From an uncultured Eubacteriales bacterium (GTDB taxonomy: Bacteria > Bacillota > Clostridia > Christensenellales > Aristaeellaceae), in the NCBI GenBank assembly GCA_902800625.1, contig CADCFG010000013.1:62001-126000 (forward strand): 64,000 nucleotides of DNA, in the 5' to 3' direction. The notes beneath the pieces are model-generated. The model was not told the origin of the DNA and searched no databases. It saw only the letters and a list, made by a program, of their open reading frames with translations. Of this stretch, positions 24,241 to 56,660 are shown piece by piece. A program made the translations under genes and the position numbers. The stretch's first letter is position 1. Every line of letters starts with the position of its first letter.

Positions 24241-26196
24241 ATGAGAGATACCCATTTAGCAAAGCGGTTTGCGCGGGCGACGGCGCTCGCGCTGGTGTTG
24301 GCGCTGGGACTGGCGATGCCGGCCAGCGCCGGCGGGTTCCTGGACTGGCTGTTTGGCGGGGACGAAGCCGTTGAGGCCGCCGCGGACGCGGCTACGGTGC
24401 CCCCGGCGGTGACGCTGCCCCCGGCGGAGGCGCTGGCGTCGCCCACCCCGGAGGCGGAGCCGACGGCCACCCTCGCGCCCGTCCCGGACGCGGCCATCGA
24501 GGACGACGGCCTGCTGCGGGTGGGGCTGATGTCCCTGGGCAACCCGGAGCAGCTGCACCTGACGCTTTCCGGCGTGTACGCCGTGGAGGGCGACGCAGGC
24601 TTCCGCTTCGCGCGAGGCACGGAGCTGACCCTGTCCGAGGCGGAGGGGAATGTATACATGTATGTGGGCGGCCTGACGCTGATGATGGGCTCATCCATGA
24701 CGCTCACCCGGCACCGCGCCGCGGAGGGCGAGGAGAACGGGCTGTACATCGACGAGAGCGAGAAGCCCACGCTGTACGCGGGCGACCTGACCGTGTCCGT
24801 CGGGGAAAACGGCGGCCTGCAGGCGGTGCTGAAGCTGCCCGTGGAGGACTACCTCTACGGCGTGGTGGCCTATGAGATGAGCGACTCCTTTCCGCTGGAG
24901 GCCCTGAAGGCTCAGGCCGTGGCGGCGCGCACCTACGCCATGCAGCGCAAGTGGCAGTCTGCCGGGCGGGCTTACGACGTGGTGGACACCACCGCCGACC
25001 AGGTGTTCAAGGGCTTTGACGGGGAGTACCGGAACGTGATCGAGGCCGTGGACGACACCCGGGGCGTGGTGGGGCTGTACAACGGCGCCTTTGCCGTGTG
25101 CTACTACACCGCCAGCAACGGCGGGCAGACCGCCCTGGCCAGCCAGCTCTGGGGCGTGAAGGACTACGACGGCTACCTGGCCATGGTGGACGACCCCTAT
25201 GACCTGGAGAACCCCCGCAGCCTGCAGAATGAGCTGACCGTCACGCCCGACTGCGAGGGCAGCGAGGCGCTGAAGGGGATGCTGGAGGCGGCGCTGGGCG
25301 AGCGTCTGGCGAAGGACGGTTACGGCGAAGGGGAGTGGAAGCTGGATTCCATCGCCTCCATCGAGCCGACGCGCCCCCGCTTCGAGGGCAGCCGGATGTT
25401 CGACACGCTGACCTTCGGCCTGCGGGCGCAGCTTTTGAAACCCGTGGCGACGCCGGAGCCGACCGGCACGCCCGAGGCCAGCGAGGCGCCTGAGGCCACT
25501 GCCGAGGCATCGGCAGAGCCCTCGGCGGAACCGACGGAGGGCGACGCCATGCCCACCGCGCCGGACGAGCCTCTGCCCGCGCCCACGGAGATCCCCCGGG
25601 AGTGGACGCTGTCGGATGAGATCTACACCGTGGCCCTGGACACCTACACCGACATCAAGGGCGGCCTGTCCCTGGGGCTGAACGGCTCGGAATGCGAGCT
25701 GGTGAGCGTGGACACGGAGCTGGACGACGCCGGGGAGCCGGCGAAGTTCACCATCATCATGCGCCGCTTCGGCCACGGCGTGGGCATGAGCCAGCGTGGC
25801 GCCCAGTGGATGGCGGGCCATTACGGCAAGAACTGGCAGGAGATCCTGGCGTTCTACTATCCTGGGCTGTCCTTTGAGCGGATGGCCTGGCCGGAGCAGC
25901 CCCTCACCGACCTGGCGGCGCTGCCCGCCGGGGTGGGAGCCGCCCGTCCCAAGCCCACGCCCGTGCCCACGCCCGCGCCGCTGCCGGAACTCAAGGAGGG
26001 CGAGCGCTATGCCGCAGTGACGGCCACGATGTTGAACTTGCGCGAAAGGCCCACCACCGCATCCATGGCCATCGCCCAGCTGGCCGAGGGCCGTCGGTTG
26101 ATCGTCACCGGCGAAGCCGATGAAAACGGCTGGGTCGCCGTGCACACGGCGGAGAGGGAGGGGTTCGTGAAGGAAGAGTATTTGAAGTATGAATAG
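24241..26196 (+). CDS. Secreted SpoIID/LytB-type protein with SH3-like C-terminus
   Basis: 651 residues with a signal peptide (LALVLALGLAMPASA). The SpoIID domain starts at about residue 90 and includes VEDYLYGVVAYEMS, ALKAQAVAARTYAMQ, TASNGGQT and RRFGHGVGMSQRGAQWMA, the features of this peptidoglycan lytic transglycosylase family. A Pro/Ala/Glu/Thr-rich linker (about 403-450) is inserted between the two halves of the domain. The C-terminus (NLRERPTTASMAIAQL...GWVAV) is a bacterial SH3 wall-binding module. SpoIID proteins often act in engulfment during sporulation, but related LytB proteins modify vegetative wall, and no other sporulation gene is nearby. Confidence 0.88.
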   Translation: MRDTHLAKRFARATALALVLALGLAMPASAGGFLDWLFGGDEAVEAAADAATVPPAVTLPPAEALASPTPEAEPTATLAPVPDAAIEDDGLLRVGLMSLGNPEQLHLTLSGVYAVEGDAGFRFARGTELTLSEAEGNVYMYVGGLTLMMGSSMTLTRHRAAEGEENGLYIDESEKPTLYAGDLTVSVGENGGLQAVLKLPVEDYLYGVVAYEMSDSFPLEALKAQAVAARTYAMQRKWQSAGRAYDVVDTTADQVFKGFDGEYRNVIEAVDDTRGVVGLYNGAFAVCYYTASNGGQTALASQLWGVKDYDGYLAMVDDPYDLENPRSLQNELTVTPDCEGSEALKGMLEAALGERLAKDGYGEGEWKLDSIASIEPTRPRFEGSRMFDTLTFGLRAQLLKPVATPEPTGTPEASEAPEATAEASAEPSAEPTEGDAMPTAPDEPLPAPTEIPREWTLSDEIYTVALDTYTDIKGGLSLGLNGSECELVSVDTELDDAGEPAKFTIIMRRFGHGVGMSQRGAQWMAGHYGKNWQEILAFYYPGLSFERMAWPEQPLTDLAALPAGVGAARPKPTPVPTPAPLPELKEGERYAAVTATMLNLRERPTTASMAIAQLAEGRRLIVTGEADENGWVAVHTAEREGFVKEEYLKYE

Positions 26197-26366
26197 GGAA
26201 CAGGCAATAGGCAAAAGGCAATAGGAATGGCTGATGTCGTGCATATGCAGGGGCGGCGTTGCGCCGTCCGCCCATATCAGGCAACTGGCAACTGGAATGG
26301 CTGCTGCCGCGTGTGAGCAGCTGTTCCCATATTCCCGCTGCCTGCTCCCTTAAAAGAGGAAACACC
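26197..26366. repeat. Composite palindromic intergenic element
   Basis: GGGAACAGGCAATAGG, CAAAAGGCAATAGGAATGG and GGCAACTGGCAACTGG units face GCTGTTCCCATATTCCCGC, TGCCTGCTCCC, with a short copy of the GGGGCGGCGTTGCGCCG repeat (see 2953-3040) between them. No gene is seen here. Confidence 0.55.
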
Positions 26367-28481
26367 ATGCACAACCGTCTTCTGCGCCTTGCGGCGCTGG
26401 TGATGCTGGCGGCGGCGCTTCTGCCGGCGCTGGCCGCCGGCGCGGGCGCGGAGGGCGGTTTTTCCGTGGCCGAGAGCATCAGTGAGCCGCGTGAAGGGGA
26501 AGCGGCGGACGGTTTTTCTGCGGAAGAAGGCGACGGGGAACTGGCGTTCATCGAGGACGTGCCGCTTTCGGCGGGAGAGCTGCGGGAGGTGGAGCTTTCC
26601 GATATCCCGGCGGGCTTTGCCTTCACCGCCCCCACGGGCAGCGTATACGACGTGTGGCTGTTCCCGGTGGGGGACGTGTCCGCAGAGGTGCATGCCCGAC
26701 TGTGGCAAGAGGATGAGCTGGCGGCGAAGAGCGACGGCGAGACGATGCCCGCGCTGAGCCTGCGCCTGACGGCAGGGGCCAGTTACGCGCTGCGCCTGAC
26801 GGGCCGGGGCAGGGTGCGGCTGGAGATTGCCCGCCACGCGCTGGGACGCTGCTTCGGCGATCCCATGGCGCTGGACGCCGCCGGGGATGACCACAGCAAG
26901 GCGTTTGCCCGGAAGGGGGACGCCCACTGGTATGCTGTGGAGCCGGACACGGACGGCGCGCTGGCGCTGGCGGCGGTGCCCGGGGACGCAGACGTGGCGC
27001 TGCAGGCGCTGCTGTTCGACGGGACCGGGCGGCTGCTGGGCGGCGCTTCCATCACCCCCGGCGGCGCGGCGCTGACGCGGCTGGAGGCCAGGGCCGGAGA
27101 ACGGTACCTGCTGCGGCTCACCGCCCGGAACGGGGCCACGGGGCTGTACAGCCTGCGGCTTGTGCCGGTAGCGGGGGAGGCCCCGGCGATGCTGACACTG
27201 TCCAGGCAGCGCGCGCTGCTGGCAGGCCGGACGCGGCTGCAGCTGACGGCGGAGACGGCCCCCTCCAGCGCGACGGACTTCATCCTCTGGGAGAGCAGCG
27301 ACGCACAGGTGGCCTCCGTGAGCGCAGACGGCCTGGTGACCAGCCGGGGCGAGGGCGAGGTGGACATCACCGCCTATGCCGCCGGCGGCGCGTTGGCCCG
27401 CTGCCGGGTGACGGTGCGCTATGTGGCGGTGGAGGAGGTGCGGCTGCTGTCCCGGCAGATGGCCCTCTGCGTGGGCGACGATGCGGCCATCGAGTGCGAC
27501 GTGCTGCCCGGCAACGCCACCGACCCGCGGCTCACCTACGTGGCCGAGCCGGAGGGTGTGGTGGAGATCGACCGGCGGGGCGTGCTGCGGGGCGTCAGCG
27601 AGGGCGAATGCACCGTGACGGTGCGCGCGGTGGACGGCGGCTGGATGGACACCCTGGCCGTCGCCGTCGGCCCCGCGCCCAAGCGCTGGCGGGCGCTGCT
27701 GGTGGGCGAGCAGAACTACGCCTCCACGGTGGCGTCGGTGCGCACCGGCTCCATCAACTCCGTCTCCGGCCTGCGCAGCATGCTGGCCGGGCTGTCCTTT
27801 GGCGGCGCGCGCTTTGCCACCACCACGCTGCTGGACGCCAGTCGCGACGGGATCCTGGCGGGCATCCGCGACGCCTTCGCCGGGGCCAAGGACGGGGATG
27901 TAGCGCTTTTTTACATCACCTGCCACGGCTACTACGAGGGCGGCGTGACCTGCTTTCGGCTGTACGACGGCTCGGTGCTGACGGCTGCGGAGCTGGCCGC
28001 GGCGCTGGCGGACGTGCCGGGGGAGATACTGCTGGTGATCGACTGCTGCGGCAGCGGCGGGGCCATCGGTCGATCCAGCGGCGCCGGGGACATCCTCAGG
28101 GGCGTGGACGCGGTGTTCGGCGGGAATGTCGGCCCCGCGGTGGTGAACGGCAGTCGGTTCCGGGTGCTGGCCAGCGCCGCGCTGGAGCAGGACAGCCACC
28201 GCATCAGCTTTGCCCCGGGCGGCGGCGAGTCCGGCATGGCCACGGTGTTTGCCCGGGCGCTGTGCGAGGCCGGGGGCTGGGATTTGCAGCGCTCGGCGCG
28301 CAGTGCCATGCGCGCCGACGTGGACTACGACGGGCGGGTGACGCTGAGCGAGCTGTACGAGTACGTGTCCCGCCGCGTGATGTGGTATCTGAGCCTGGCG
28401 GGCGAGCCGGGTCAGTATGCCCAGAGCGTGCAGGTCTGGCCCGAGGGACTGGCGGACGCGGTGTTTGAGAGGACGCGATAG
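26367..28481 (+). CDS. Secreted caspase-like (clan CD) protein with Ig-like domains
   Basis: 704 residues with a signal peptide (RLLRLAALVMLAAALLPALA). The middle (about 270-435) carries two BIG2-type Ig-like domains (SSDAQVASVSADGLVTS, GVVEIDRRGVLRGVSEGECTVTV). The C-terminal part (about 445-690) resembles a C14 caspase/metacaspase fold: RALLVGEQNY opening strand, catalytic-type ITCHGY (His520) and VIDCCGSGG (Cys561, with Cys560 adjacent), followed by FRVLASAALEQDS. The protein may be an Arg/Lys- or Asp-specific peptidase outside the cell; activity is not shown. AGAGGA precedes ATG 26367. Confidence 0.78.
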   Translation: MHNRLLRLAALVMLAAALLPALAAGAGAEGGFSVAESISEPREGEAADGFSAEEGDGELAFIEDVPLSAGELREVELSDIPAGFAFTAPTGSVYDVWLFPVGDVSAEVHARLWQEDELAAKSDGETMPALSLRLTAGASYALRLTGRGRVRLEIARHALGRCFGDPMALDAAGDDHSKAFARKGDAHWYAVEPDTDGALALAAVPGDADVALQALLFDGTGRLLGGASITPGGAALTRLEARAGERYLLRLTARNGATGLYSLRLVPVAGEAPAMLTLSRQRALLAGRTRLQLTAETAPSSATDFILWESSDAQVASVSADGLVTSRGEGEVDITAYAAGGALARCRVTVRYVAVEEVRLLSRQMALCVGDDAAIECDVLPGNATDPRLTYVAEPEGVVEIDRRGVLRGVSEGECTVTVRAVDGGWMDTLAVAVGPAPKRWRALLVGEQNYASTVASVRTGSINSVSGLRSMLAGLSFGGARFATTTLLDASRDGILAGIRDAFAGAKDGDVALFYITCHGYYEGGVTCFRLYDGSVLTAAELAAALADVPGEILLVIDCCGSGGAIGRSSGAGDILRGVDAVFGGNVGPAVVNGSRFRVLASAALEQDSHRISFAPGGGESGMATVFARALCEAGGWDLQRSARSAMRADVDYDGRVTLSELYEYVSRRVMWYLSLAGEPGQYAQSVQVWPEGLADAVFERTR

Positions 28482-29253: not shown

Positions 29254-32200
29254 TTACTTCAGCTTCACCCGCATGGGCCTGGCCGGGGGCGTATAGCTGA
29301 AATCGGGAATGATGGCGGGAGCCCTTTCCGGGACGGGCGCGTCTTTGACGGGCGTTTTCGACGCGGGCGCTTCCACTGGCGCGGGCGTTGTCTCCGGCGC
29401 AGGCGCTTCAACGGGCGCTTCCGCAGGCGCGGCCTCCGGCGCGGGTGCTTCCACACGCGCATCATCGGGCGCTTCCGCTGCCGGGATTGCCGCGGGCGCC
29501 TCCGTCCGGTCCTCGCCGTCCAGCACGGAGTCGTCGGTCATGCCGGCGGCCTCCTTGATCATCTGGATCTCCTGGGCCTTCATGGTCTTGCCGTTCACCA
29601 GGTCGTACAGCACCGGTACCACGAACAGCGTCATCAGCGTGGCGTAGGTCAGTCCGCCGATGGACACCACGGCCATGGGCTGCATCATCTCCGCGCCCAT
29701 GCCCCGGCCCAGCGCCATGGTGGACATGCCCAGAATGGTGGTCAGCGCCGTCATCAGGATCGGCCTCAGGCGGATGCGGCCGGTCTCAATCAGGGCCTCC
29801 CGCTTCTCCATGCCGCCGATGCGCAGCTGGTTCACGCAGTCGATGAACACGATGCCGTTGTTCACCACCACGCCGGACAGCACCAGGAAGCCCAGCATGC
29901 TGACGATGGACAGGTCCATGCCGGTGAGCAGCAGCGCCAGCAATCCGCCGGTGAACGCCAGGGGGATGGTGAACATGACGATGATGGGGGACTTGAAGGA
30001 CTGGAACTGGGCCACCATGATCAGGAAGATCAGCAGTATGGCGATCAGCACCATCCAGACCAGGTCCTGCATGATGCCCATGACGGTCTCGTTCTCGCCG
30101 GACAGGTCGACGCTGTAGCCCGCGGGCACGGCGTAGTCCTTCAGCTTCGCCTCGAAGGCGTCGCTGACGTGGTTGGCACTGTAGCCCTCGGCCACGCCGA
30201 AGGACACCGTCACCATGCGCTTCTGGCTGGCGCGGTTGATGGTGGACAGGCTGTTGGCGTCCGTCACCTCGGCCACGTCGCCGATGCGCACCAGCTTGTT
30301 CTCCTCCTCGCCGTCCACCTCGATCTCCAGGTCTTCCACCTCTTCGGGGGTGATCTCGGCGTTGGCGGCGTCGGATAGGTACACGCTGTACTCCTTGCCG
30401 TCGAAGGTCACCTTGGTGATCTCCGTGCGCCCGGCCACCTTTTGGGCCACGAACTGGAATACCTGGGCGGTGGTCAGGCCCTGGTCGATGGCCTTCTCCT
30501 TGTCCACCTCGATGCGCAGCTCCGGCACTGCGTCCTCCAGGCCGTCGTCCACGTCGACGGCGCCTTCGGTCTGCCGGGCCAGCTCGGCCACATCCCTGGC
30601 GATGGCCTGCAGGGTGTCGATGTCGTCGCCGGTGATTTCGGCGGAGATGCCGCTGCCGGTCATCATGGAGATGTCCATGGTGCTGGCCTGCACAGACAGG
30701 TCCGCGCCGTACTTTCCGCCGATGGCGCTCATCTGGTTGGCGATGTCGGCATTCTTGAGCCCCAGGGTGTCGTCGATCATGATATAATAGCTCATGCCGC
30801 TGCCGCCGGACAGGCCGGACAACATGCCGCCCGCGCCGCCCATCAGGCCCACGGACTGCACGCCCTCGATCTGAAGCATGTCGTCCATGATGGCCACGGC
30901 CTGCTCCTTCTGCTGGGCGTCGGTCATTTCCGGGTCAAACTGCAGATCGGCGCTCATTTGGCGGCTGTTGACCTCCGGCATGAAGGAGATGCCCATCTTC
31001 GGCACCTGCATGGCCGAGAACACCAGCAGCCCCAGCGCCGCCAGCAGCACCAGCGGCTTCACCTTCAGCGCGCCGCGCAGCAGGCCGGTGTAGCCCCGCT
31101 GGATGGCGCTGAAGACGCGGTGTTTGTGGGGCTTGCTGTGGCGCATCAGGAACGAGCACATGGCGGGCACCACCGTCATGGCCACGAACAGGCTGGCCAG
31201 CAGCGAGAACGCGATGGTCAGGCCCATGTCAGAAAACAGGTCGCGGGCCATGCCCTGCACGAACACGATGGGCAGGAACACGCAGATGGTGGTGAGCGTG
31301 GAGGCGAACAGCGCGCCGGAGACGGATTTCACGCCCTCCACGCAGGCGCGCAGCAGGGGAACACCCTCCTCGTCGTGGAGGCGGTAGATGTTTTCAATGG
31401 CCACGATGGAGTTGTCCACCAGCATGCCGATGCCCAGACTCAAGCCGCTCAGCGACAGCACGTTCAGCGTGATGCCGGTGAAGTACATGCACACGAAGGC
31501 GATGACCACGCTGATGGGGATGGAGAAGGCCACGGTGATGGTGGGCCGCAGGTCCATCAGGAACAGCAGCAGGATCAATATCGCCAGAGCGCCGCCGGAC
31601 AGCAGGTTGTTCAGCACGGAGTCGACGATGATCTTGATGTACTCGCCCTGGTTCATCAGGTCGACGATGTGCAGGTTCTCGTTCTCCGCCATCAGCGCCT
31701 TTGCCCGGTCGAGGATGGTTTCCGCCACGTCGGCGGTGGAGTAGGTGGACTGCTTGTCGATGGACAGCAGGATGCCGTCGGCGCCGTTCAGCTTGGTGAA
31801 CACCTCGTCCCGGTTATCGGCCATCTCCACCCGGGCCACGTCCAGCAGGCGCACCTCGTCGATGGAATCCAGCCCCAGGTCGAACAGCTTCATCCGCCGC
31901 AGGCTGTCCAGGGAGTTGAACTTGTCGCCCACGCGCACCAGCACCTGCTCATTTTCCGCGTCGTAGACGTAGCCCGCGGGCATGGAGAAGTTCTGGGCGC
32001 CGATGAGCCCGGCCACCATCTGCACGGTGATTACGCCGTCCAATCCGGCGTTCTCCAGGGCTTCGTCCCGCTTCTCGTTGAATTCCTTGCGGGCCTTGGC
32101 CAGCTCCGCCTCGCCGTTTTCGATCATGGCCGCGGCCTGGGCAAAGCCGCTGTCGGCCTGCTTGCGGGCGGCCTGCAGCTGGGCCTTGGCGTCGGCGAGG

Positions 32201-34476
32201 TTGGTGTCCTCGTCGATGCCCTCGATGTAGCCGCCGGGGATGATGCCCTTCTTGAGCTTCTCCAGCGTGTCGTCGATCTGGGCGATGCCCGCGTCCAGCT
32301 GCGCCAGGCCATCCTTGGCCTGGGTGTATTGGGCGTTCAGGGCTTCGGGATCCTGGGCCAGGGCCAGCGCCTTGTACTCATCGCTGCCCTCCAGTGCGTC
32401 GATCTGTCCCTGCAACAGCGCGATCTGCTGGCGCAGGGTGTCGGGGTCAAGGGCGTTCTCCACGGCCTGGCTCATGCCTCCCAATTCGGCCTCCAGCGTG
32501 GAGATGCGCCCGTTGAGGGACTCGATTTGGCGCTGGGCCTCGGCGCGGCGGCTCTCCACGTCGGCGTTGTCGCTCTCGGCGATGGCCAGGGCGGCGCGCT
32601 TGGCCTCCAGGTTGGCGGTATCGGCGGCAAGGGCCTGCTCCAGGCCGGACACCGTGCCGGACTGGGCGTTGATCTCGGTTTCCAGCTGGCTGAGACTGGC
32701 CTGCGCGGCGCTCAGCTGGCTGCGCAGGGCCTCGATGCCGCCGTCCTCGGCCAACGCCCGGAAGGGGCTGTAGCCGGTGAGGGTTTCGGGGTCGGGGGTG
32801 ACGGTGGGCTCGACCATGGGCTCCGTCGTGGAGGCTTCTTCGCCGTCCGACAGAACTGCGCCGGCGGGCTTGGTGCCGTCGGTCTGGCCGGGGACGTCGG
32901 TCTGGCCGGGATCGTCGGTCTGTCCGGGGTCGTCGGTCTGTCCGGGGTCGTCGGTCTGTCCGGGGTCGTCGGTCTGGCCGGGGACGTCGGTCTGGCCGGG
33001 GTCGTCGATCTGGCCGGGATCGTCGGTCTGGCCGGGGTCGTCGGTCTGGCCGGGGTCGTCGGTCTGAGCGGGGTCGTCGGTCTGGCCGGGGTCGTCGGTC
33101 TGAGCGGGGTCGTCGGTCTGGCCGGGGTCGTCGGTCTGGCCGGGGTCGTCGGTCTGGCCGGGATTGTCGGTCTGTTCAGGCGCTTCTGTCTGCGCCGGGG
33201 TTTCTGTCTGCGCCGGGGCTTCGGTTTTGTTGTCCGCCGCGTCGATCTTCCGCTGCAGCTCCGCGATCTCATCCTGCAGGGACTGGCGCTGGTCCTCCAA
33301 CTCGGACAGGCGCGCCTTGGCGCTGTCCAGGTCGGCCTGATCGGAGGCCACAGCGCTCTCCAGGGACGCCACATCGCCCTTCAGGGCGTCGGCGTCCAGC
33401 AGGTTGAGGTCGGCCAGATACTGCTGCTGGGCGTCGCGCTGGGAAGTCAGCTCGTCGATCTGGCTCTGCAGATCGGCCCGGGAGGCGTCGATATCGCTGG
33501 CAGTGAGGCCGTTGTCGTCGGCGCTGTCCAGCTGCTTCTGGAGCACCTCCAGCTGCTGCTTGAGGGCGGTCAGCTGCTCCTGGCCCTGCTCCAGCGCGGC
33601 GCGATCCTCGTCGCTCATGTTTACCAGCGGCTCCATGGCCTGGACGGCCTTGCTCAGCTCGTCCCGCTGGGCGACCAGCTCGGCGCGCTGGGCCTCCAGC
33701 TGCTGGATGGCGGGTTCGATCTTGTCAGCGCCATTGTCGATGGCGTCCAGGGCTTCGTCGATCTTCTGGTAGGCCTGCCGGCGCGCGCGGGCCAGCTGGC
33801 GCTTGCCGTCGGACAGCTGGGCCTGGGCGTCGTTCAGCTGGCGCTCCACGTCAGCCAGCTCCGCGTCCACGTCCTCGAGGATGGCGCTGTTGAGCACGTC
33901 GATGCGGCTCTGCTCGATGACCACGTCCACCCGCTGCTCGATCAGGCCGGAGGCGCTGGCCGAGGCCACGCCGTTCAGGCTCTCGAAGGCGGGGATCAGC
34001 TCGTCCTCCACGTAGTCCGACAGGGCAAGGATGTCCATGTCGTCCCGGGAGACGGAGAGTATGGCCACGGGCAGCATGTCCGGGTTCAGCTTCATGGCCA
34101 CCGGCGCGCCGATCTCGTCGCCCCAGTTGCCCCGCAGCTGCTCCAGCCGGGAATTCAGCTCGATCAGGGCGGTGTCCATGTTGGCGCCGTCGTTGAACTG
34201 CATGATGACCACGGACACGTTGTCCCGGGAGGAGGAGGTGATCTTCTTCACGTCCGTCAGTGTGGCCACCGCGGCCTCCATGGGCCGGGTGACCTCCGCC
34301 TCCACCTGCTCCGGGGTCGCGCCCACATAGGTGGTGTACACCACCACATAGGGCAGGTTCATGCTGGGCAGCAGGTCGGTGGTCATGTGCTGGAAGGAGA
34401 TGACCCCCAGCACGATCACCAGTATGATGCCCACGATGACCGTATATGGTTTTTTGACGCTGTATTTTGAAAGCAT
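29254..34476 (-). CDS. RND efflux permease with giant coiled-coil and hexapeptide-repeat insertion
   Basis: 1740 residues, against about 1040 for typical RND pumps. The N-terminus (KKPYTVIVGIILVIVLGVISF, then PYVVVYTTYVGATPEQVE) and the later membrane domain (GMLVDNSIVAIENIYR, SKPHKH, VVNNGIVFIDCVNQLR) are standard. The usual second Asp of the proton relay in helix 4 is Asn here. Residues about 200-815 are an insertion in the first extracytoplasmic loop. It consists of heptad-like coiled coil (ELADVERQLNDAQAQLSDGK...), then 19 units of PGQTDD-type hexapeptides (about 421-535), then a second coiled coil. The C-terminal tail (about 90 residues) is Ala/Pro/Glu rich. GGGAGG precedes ATG 34476. 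It probably exports a hydrophobic substrate, which is unknown. Confidence 0.88.
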   Translation of the reverse strand: MLSKYSVKKPYTVIVGIILVIVLGVISFQHMTTDLLPSMNLPYVVVYTTYVGATPEQVEAEVTRPMEAAVATLTDVKKITSSSRDNVSVVIMQFNDGANMDTALIELNSRLEQLRGNWGDEIGAPVAMKLNPDMLPVAILSVSRDDMDILALSDYVEDELIPAFESLNGVASASASGLIEQRVDVVIEQSRIDVLNSAILEDVDAELADVERQLNDAQAQLSDGKRQLARARRQAYQKIDEALDAIDNGADKIEPAIQQLEAQRAELVAQRDELSKAVQAMEPLVNMSDEDRAALEQGQEQLTALKQQLEVLQKQLDSADDNGLTASDIDASRADLQSQIDELTSQRDAQQQYLADLNLLDADALKGDVASLESAVASDQADLDSAKARLSELEDQRQSLQDEIAELQRKIDAADNKTEAPAQTETPAQTEAPEQTDNPGQTDDPGQTDDPGQTDDPAQTDDPGQTDDPAQTDDPGQTDDPGQTDDPGQIDDPGQTDVPGQTDDPGQTDDPGQTDDPGQTDDPGQTDVPGQTDGTKPAGAVLSDGEEASTTEPMVEPTVTPDPETLTGYSPFRALAEDGGIEALRSQLSAAQASLSQLETEINAQSGTVSGLEQALAADTANLEAKRAALAIAESDNADVESRRAEAQRQIESLNGRISTLEAELGGMSQAVENALDPDTLRQQIALLQGQIDALEGSDEYKALALAQDPEALNAQYTQAKDGLAQLDAGIAQIDDTLEKLKKGIIPGGYIEGIDEDTNLADAKAQLQAARKQADSGFAQAAAMIENGEAELAKARKEFNEKRDEALENAGLDGVITVQMVAGLIGAQNFSMPAGYVYDAENEQVLVRVGDKFNSLDSLRRMKLFDLGLDSIDEVRLLDVARVEMADNRDEVFTKLNGADGILLSIDKQSTYSTADVAETILDRAKALMAENENLHIVDLMNQGEYIKIIVDSVLNNLLSGGALAILILLLFLMDLRPTITVAFSIPISVVIAFVCMYFTGITLNVLSLSGLSLGIGMLVDNSIVAIENIYRLHDEEGVPLLRACVEGVKSVSGALFASTLTTICVFLPIVFVQGMARDLFSDMGLTIAFSLLASLFVAMTVVPAMCSFLMRHSKPHKHRVFSAIQRGYTGLLRGALKVKPLVLLAALGLLVFSAMQVPKMGISFMPEVNSRQMSADLQFDPEMTDAQQKEQAVAIMDDMLQIEGVQSVGLMGGAGGMLSGLSGGSGMSYYIMIDDTLGLKNADIANQMSAIGGKYGADLSVQASTMDISMMTGSGISAEITGDDIDTLQAIARDVAELARQTEGAVDVDDGLEDAVPELRIEVDKEKAIDQGLTTAQVFQFVAQKVAGRTEITKVTFDGKEYSVYLSDAANAEITPEEVEDLEIEVDGEEENKLVRIGDVAEVTDANSLSTINRASQKRMVTVSFGVAEGYSANHVSDAFEAKLKDYAVPAGYSVDLSGENETVMGIMQDLVWMVLIAILLIFLIMVAQFQSFKSPIIVMFTIPLAFTGGLLALLLTGMDLSIVSMLGFLVLSGVVVNNGIVFIDCVNQLRIGGMEKREALIETGRIRLRPILMTALTTILGMSTMALGRGMGAEMMQPMAVVSIGGLTYATLMTLFVVPVLYDLVNGKTMKAQEIQMIKEAAGMTDDSVLDGEDRTEAPAAIPAAEAPDDARVEAPAPEAAPAEAPVEAPAPETTPAPVEAPASKTPVKDAPVPERAPAIIPDFSYTPPARPMRVKLK
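32873..33216 (-). repeat. 18-nt tandem repeat array inside the RND permease gene
   Basis: About 19 copies of an 18-nt unit encode PxQTDx hexapeptides (mostly PGQTDD, some PAQTDD, PGQTDV, PGQIDD). Units at the edges are more diverged. Such arrays change length by slippage, so copy number may vary between strains or be compressed in assembly. Confidence 0.9.
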
Positions 34477-34571: not shown

Positions 34572-34600
34572 ATTATAGCGGCACCGGGCCTGTTTGTCTA
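34572..34600 (-). promoter_or_regulatory. Promoter of the RND permease gene
   Basis: On the minus strand TAGACA (34600-34595) and TATAAT (34577-34572) are spaced by 17 nt. A similar TAGACA/TATAAT pair precedes pfkA. Confidence 0.65.
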
Positions 34601-56452: not shown

Positions 56453-56660
56453 TTGCCGCTTCGCTTGAATGAGGAATTAGGAATGAGGAATTAGGAATGG
56501 GGAATGAGGAGTGGAGGTGCAAATCCCTGCGGGATTTGTTTTGATTAATGAAGACGGAAGCGTGCTGAAACGCCGCTTGTCCCTTTTCAATCGAAGAAAT
56601 CCGTCAGGATTTCCTCCTGAATTCCTCATTCCTCACTCCTCATTCCTCATTTATGAGCGT
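56453..56660. repeat. Palindromic purine-repeat element between parA and parB
   Basis: Units GAATGAGGAATTAGGAATGAGG on the left face CCTGAATTCCTCATTCC, TCACTCCTCATTCCTC on the right. A smaller hairpin AAATCCCTGCGGGATTT is in the middle. It fills the 260-nt gap. It is an A/T-richer relative in form of the GGGAACAGG elements. Confidence 0.7.

Follow-up and report, generated by a model that had tools for sequence, protein, structure and literature searches.

Among the described systems closest to the transporter analysed here are the HAE1/AcrB-MdtB tripartite pumps, with which it shares core sequence, the porter fold and the TM4 and TM11 motifs. Unlike in those pumps, there is no adaptor gene at the locus and no outer-membrane factor in the genome, and the docking subdomain contains an insertion of ~617 aa. 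For such an insertion the nearest parallels are MmpL5 and MmpL10. Deleting the 196-aa coiled-coil insert of MmpL5 abolishes efflux, and the insert has been modelled as a hexameric alpha-barrel of ~13 nm (PMC12501195), while trimerisation of MmpL10 depends on its coiled coil (PMC12183618). An earlier sequence-only reading of this DNA, which knew of no described function for an insertion of this kind, is therefore outdated as regards RNDs generally.

Like the pump, MmpL5 and MmpL10 are RND exporters of a wall-bound cell without TolC; they carry an inserted antiparallel coiled-coil hairpin, which in the pump is predicted. The MmpL hairpins comprise about 190-255 aa and are proposed to form a trimeric tube, and either efflux or oligomerisation depends on them (PMC12501195, PMC12183618). 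In MmpL cluster I the coiled coil is flanked by beta2 and beta3 of the C-terminal D2 domain (PMC8277102, PMC12501195), that is, it lies in PD2 (loop 2), whereas the insert of the pump is in loop 1, where it interrupts the FN subdomain of a core of the AcrB/HAE1 type. The arms of the pump are also about twice as long and have a disordered linker at their tip, and the host is a Clostridia monoderm rather than a mycomembrane bacterium, with a pump of a different RND subfamily. The MmpL and Clostridia hairpins are probably convergent.

Two other systems resemble the pump in part. The alpha-hairpins of AcrA/EmrA-type adaptors are also coiled coils that extend the export path off the membrane; these adaptors, however, are separate polypeptides with lipoyl and beta-barrel domains, neither of which was found in the pump insert. 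PrgA of enterococci has a long coiled-coil stalk in a monoderm, ~40 nm in length (PMC10588982), and was matched by VIA-align, but it is a wall-anchored protease presenter and no transporter; the arrangement alone is common to both.

The pump gene and its insertion

The pump gene lies within a 64,000-nucleotide stretch of DNA (the window), and its features are collected in the table. The sequence-only reading had placed an RND pump at exactly these coordinates, and the Pfam profile ACR_tran matches the open frame with an E-value of 2.9e-203, in two pieces that cover both halves of the protein. In the genome these pieces correspond to profile positions 2-218 and 199-1020, with no intervening stop. 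The NCBIfam profile RND_permease_2 also matches (E 1.3e-158), at 529.9 bits and thus below its cut-off of 1250, as for a divergent superfamily member, so that the protein is filed at the superfamily level only. Both the TM4 motif GIGMLVDN (with D1021) and the TM11 motif RLRPILMT (from residue 1569) are kept, and VIA-align superposes aa 40-131 onto AcrB, AcrD, MexY and CusA with Z of 10-12 and rmsd of about 2.1-2.4 Å. By these sequence criteria the protein is an AcrB-type (HAE1-like) RND permease, a predicted proton-driven exporter of rumen Clostridia.

Features of the pump gene (positions are those of the window)
Feature	Coordinates	Strand	Basis
RND permease ORF, 1740 aa	29254..34476	(-)	monocistronic, both neighbours on the other strand; ACR_tran, RND_permease_2
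TM1 and first porter part of loop 1, aa 1-195	33892..34476	(-)	ACR_tran pieces, alignment, VIA-align
Insertion into the N-terminal funnel/docking (FN/DN) subdomain, aa 196-814	32035..33891	(-)	alignment, flank HMMs, MdtB mapping
Coiled-coil arm 1, aa 197-416	33229..33888	(-)	heptad z 9.2, AF2, length in the genus
Acidic linker, aa 418-578, disordered, Pro/Thr/Asp-rich, net charge -41	32743..33225	(-)	pLDDT 30-40
Hexapeptide array within the linker: aa 421-534 hold 19 units, including 16 near PGQTDD at aa 439-534	32875..33216	(-)	
Coiled-coil arm 2, aa 579-809	32050..32742	(-)	heptad z 9.2, AF2, length in the genus
Core remainder, aa 815-1640 (rest of funnel and porter, TM2-TM12)	29557..32034	(-)	ACR_tran, MdtB mapping
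C-terminal tail, aa 1641-1740, Pro/Ala/Glu-rich, variable, presumably cytoplasmic	29257..29556	(-)	genus comparison
Promoter-like site TAGACA-17-TATAAT upstream of the pump ORF	34572..34600	(-)	consensus match only, 11/12

The gene stands alone, with the promoter-like site 96-124 bp upstream of it. The C-terminal tail is highly variable, measuring 22-154 aa across members of the genus. An open frame of 1342 aa runs antisense to the pump (30442-34470, plus strand) and is most likely an artefact of GC bias. Near the pump, a plus-strand gene at 24241-26196 encodes a SpoIID/LytB-domain protein with an SH3_3 domain and an internal Pro/Ala/Glu-rich stretch; the plus-strand gene at 26259-28481 encodes a secreted-looking protein with a Big_2 domain and a second domain that is caspase-like, of the EACC1-associated type (1.4e-12, a match that falls short of the curated cut-off). 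Elsewhere in the window, heptanucleotide arrays of GAATGAG and its complement CTCATTC (56467-56510 and 56621-56651) form an inverted pair ~110 bp apart.

The roughly 600 extra residues previously noticed in the first extracytoplasmic loop were recovered as ~617 aa (aa 196/197-813) between TM1 and TM2, both by alignment of genus homologs and by paired flank HMMs, and their site could be refined to the N-terminal funnel/docking subdomain. Alignment to MdtB puts the insertion between about residues 207 and 208 of that protein, which corresponds to about residue 197-199 of AcrB. In the terms of PMC8277102, the N-terminal funnel (docking) subdomain begins with a short helix, and the MdtB position comes just after this first one; the subdomain covers the porter on its membrane-distal side, and exported drug collects there (PMC8277102). 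Profile searches of Pfam and NCBIfam found no known peptidoglycan-binding domain in the insert.

Constant arms and a variable linker

The insert consists of arm 1 (222 aa), a linker of 160 aa and arm 2 (about 230 aa). The order of coil, repeats and coil proposed earlier was borne out by a heptad test, in which the hydrophobic contrast of a/d positions gave z of 9.2 in each arm, a value reached by 0 of 1000 shuffles, and z of -1.2, without any pattern, in the linker. When periodicity was sought at 97-108 degrees alone, arm 2 scored weakly, its heptad signal being in the 154-degree harmonic. At the DNA level the repeats form a tandem array (32877-33174) of an 18-bp unit with 16.6 copies and 92% matches, and at the protein level the hexapeptides are of the P-x-Q-T-D/E type.

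In AF2 models the arm helices have pLDDT of about 60-97. Arm 1 is built of helices 189-250, 253-285, 289-322, 326-358 and 362-416, and arm 2 of helices 579-635, 637-673, 678-696/699-707 (with a small break), 710-742 and 760-809, with a conserved IIPGGYIEGIDEDTNL turn at aa 745-760. Counted from base to tip, the segments measure 62/33/34/33/55 residues in arm 1 and 50/33/30/37/57 in arm 2. Because the helix breaks mirror each other, we infer antiparallel pairing of the two arms, which would give a single extended hairpin at least about 30 nm long; fully extended, its predicted length would be about 32-34 nm (217-228 residues at 1.5 Å). The full loop, modelled with 7 sequences, had a poorly modelled RND core and a pTM of 0.28, and the hairpin alone was better, with mean pLDDT of 71 and pTM of 0.35. 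Both pTM values are low, so the models do not fix the global shape, and the helices may instead be folded back on one another as a bundle. The VIA-align hits of the arms are nearly all long antiparallel coiled coils, including SMC/MukB/Rad50 and PrgA, at Z of about 10-12, a range common for long helices. The most precise hit was to Wadjet JetC, with 1.1 Å rmsd over 75 residues that cover both distal arms, and it lends support to antiparallel pairing.

The pump gene was found in 23 of 28 genomes of the genus. All 18 full-length members contain 573-930 extra aa at the same residue. In these 18 proteins the lengths of the arms are nearly constant (218-225 aa for arm 1 and 228-235 aa for arm 2, sd about 2), and that of the linker ranges from 119 to 470 aa (sd 92). 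The insertion is thus widespread. To an assembly chimera or a frame error we give practically no weight, and we reject this explanation, as nothing was found in its favour and the same architecture occurs in the genus genomes and in independent rumen Clostridia MAGs, most copies being a single open frame.

The linkers themselves are unrelated, low-complexity sequences. The closest relative matches over the whole protein with 92% identity, yet its linker consists of APAETE repeats instead of the PGQTDD type of the window, and PTEAP, KPEPKSEP and SDGDSPS are found elsewhere. The 19-unit array described in the sequence-only reading is thus real, with 16 units near PGQTDD, but its sequence is unconserved even in the closest relative, and we rejected the array as a conserved element. 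The hairpin is the common feature, and the hexapeptide array decorates its tip.

The arms evolve faster than the core, with dN/dS of 0.25-0.79 and one value of 1.04 as compared to 0-0.44 in the core. The constant-length arms are under purifying selection in most comparisons. Linker repeats and fast-evolving arms speak for an inert insertion, in which slippage of repeats has enlarged an exposed loop that plays no part in transport. Set against this, the arm length is constant (sd 2 aa), arm dN/dS is mostly below 1, heptads are kept in every coiled-coil insert tested, from many families, and the insert has a single origin and has long been retained. We therefore consider an inert insertion very improbable.

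Hairpin pumps of other families and the missing adaptor

In 200 surveyed genomes of the order, the profile match of many AcrB-type RNDs, proteins of about 1250-1400 aa, breaks at position about 198, as it does in the pump. Among 20 loci of the order, 18 hold coiled-coil inserts of 208-322 aa at the identical site, as does L054; the other two, L071 and L083, have inserts of just 44 and 25 aa. Five further hairpin RNDs (L084-L088, 205-349 aa) were found elsewhere in the class or phylum. In all, 24 sister RNDs sampled from other families have a coiled-coil insert of about 205-350 aa at the site used in the pump, in addition to the 18 full-length genus members, and heptad z was 5.9-13 in the 20 sister inserts tested. 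As a control, ~150 best matches in a survey of 299 genomes of the phylum, a ranked list that favours canonical pumps, were unbroken from about position 2 to 1020, and nearly all their ORFs measure about 1020-1100 aa.

In a tree of the cores with the inserts removed, the 31 hairpin rows fall on one side of a branch with SH-aLRT of 100. They are nested in a 40-row adaptor-less group (SH-aLRT 100) that is set apart from 20 canonical RNDs (97); this is a quick tree, in which the long rows L058, L060 and L097 are unsurely placed. As judged from this tree, the hairpin pumps are a single clade, inherited as one group. Beside it branch L056, L057, L058 and L059 of the order, separate adaptor-less RNDs with inserts of 176-461 aa near the docking-domain site of the pump; the heptad z is -1.0 for L056 (no pattern) and weak for L057 (2.6) and L059 (4.3). 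Other Clostridia RNDs, L090, L091 and L095 (also L092-L094), are extended at a different point, about position 250 of the Pfam profile, which in AcrB is near the docking hairpin, and no adaptor was found at their loci.

The only long Pro-rich linker among these sisters is that of L054 (58 aa), so the linker is mainly an elaboration at the level of the genus. This bears on the possibility that the hairpin is a stalk displaying a variable surface tip, for evasion of phages or antibodies or for shielding of the pump, with the array as the functional part. Such a role would fit linkers that differ altogether in sequence and length from one close relative to the next, the proneness of an 18-bp tandem array to slippage and the VIA-align match to PrgA, itself a stalk of ~40 nm (PMC10588982). 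However, neutral drift of a disordered loop also fits this turnover, and nearly all sister pumps have the hairpin with merely short tip loops; the hairpin thus predates the linker and needs another use. We regard display as improbable.

The proposal of a single-membrane cell agrees with the genomes. No TolC-type outer-membrane factor was found in any of 60 relatives and no Omp85 in 41 genomes, and the absence of both indicates a monoderm envelope. At the pump locus we found no TolC, Omp85 or adaptor genes; adaptors of the HlyD/RND_mfp type are present elsewhere in genomes of the genus, away from the pump. A search with an HMM of 20 adaptor sequences located an adaptor abutting the canonical Clostridia RND in 20 of 20 fetched loci, which were chosen among the best-scoring canonical pumps, and had no match at any hairpin locus. 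It also had no match at the sisters with a short insert or none (L055, L071, L083, L089, L096 and L097); the short inserts of adaptor-less sister RNDs measure 25-91 aa. The absence of the adaptor is therefore wider than the hairpin and probably older, that is, it probably preceded the hairpin. Of the earlier suggestion that the insertion replaces a separate adaptor, the lack of an adaptor gene at the locus stands, but replacement in its simple form is weakened by these hairpin-less sisters.

A TetR gene lies directly downstream of eight sister pumps (L066, L067, L070, L075, L078, L084, L086 and L088), L082 has a TetR gene upstream and L077 a MarR gene downstream, and these regulator genes directly abut or overlap the pump gene. 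TetR or MarR genes in such a position usually accompany inducible exporters of drugs or amphiphiles. The pump of the window has neither beside it.

A proposed stalk through the cell wall

By analogy with the described systems we lean towards a proton-coupled AcrB-type exporter of monoderm Clostridia that works without adaptor or outer-membrane channel, and in which the hairpins of a trimer would form a stalk through the wall. The protomers would trimerise, as inferred from RND homology and from MmpL5 and MmpL10. Above the exit of the funnel, their three hairpins would then come together as a stalk of six helices, perhaps a conduit, which may carry or guide exported amphiphiles off the membrane and through the peptidoglycan wall, and the linker would be a flexible, surface-exposed tip with little constraint on its sequence. 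A lipopeptide or other amphiphile is a plausible substrate, by analogy with SwrC and surfactin (PMC12096827), and spanning of the wall with hand-over of cargo outside, as first suggested from the sequence, is likewise plausible.

A bolder version, which we think less probable, is a single-polypeptide efflux machine whose docking domains would form a six-helix tube of ~30 nm across thick peptidoglycan, independent of the MmpL tube, and substitute for adaptor and outer-membrane duct. Against the stalk reading as such, adaptor-less sisters without a hairpin exist, so a pump can do without the adaptor and have no hairpin either; the RND SwrC exports surfactin from a monoderm, B. subtilis (PMC12096827); and the wall of a channel under tight constraint would not usually evolve as fast as the arms do (ω of 0.25-1.04 versus 0-0.44 in the core).

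The role of the hairpin may instead be mechanical or organising, with the cargo released at the funnel and the hairpin clamping the trimer or anchoring the pump to peptidoglycan or to a partner in the wall or in division. The coiled coil of MmpL10 does drive trimerisation (PMC12183618), adaptor-less RNDs without hairpins exist, and fast-evolving arms of conserved length fit a spacer or clamp. On the other hand, the insert has no known peptidoglycan-binding domain in Pfam or NCBIfam, and it is located at the funnel, where cargo exits. We consider a clamp or anchor on the whole unlikely, and prefer the stalk.

No report of a coiled-coil RND in Firmicutes was found in the open-access literature, and Firmicutes were by design not part of a major phylogeny of the HME, NFE and HAE-1 pumps (PMC10872679). 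The hairpin pump is a real variant of RND exporters that, within the open-access literature, seems to be undescribed. What makes it interesting is the hairpin clade, more than the hexapeptide array. Little has been described of how RNDs hand on their cargo where an outer membrane is lacking, and the occurrence of long-hairpin, short-hairpin and hairpin-less clades on similar cores makes the function of the stalk directly testable. The comparison suggests that in single-membrane bacteria a stalk crossing the wall became part of the pump protein, as happened separately in mycobacteria; together with MmpL, RND exporters would then have evolved a stalk of their own at least twice, at different positions of the fold.
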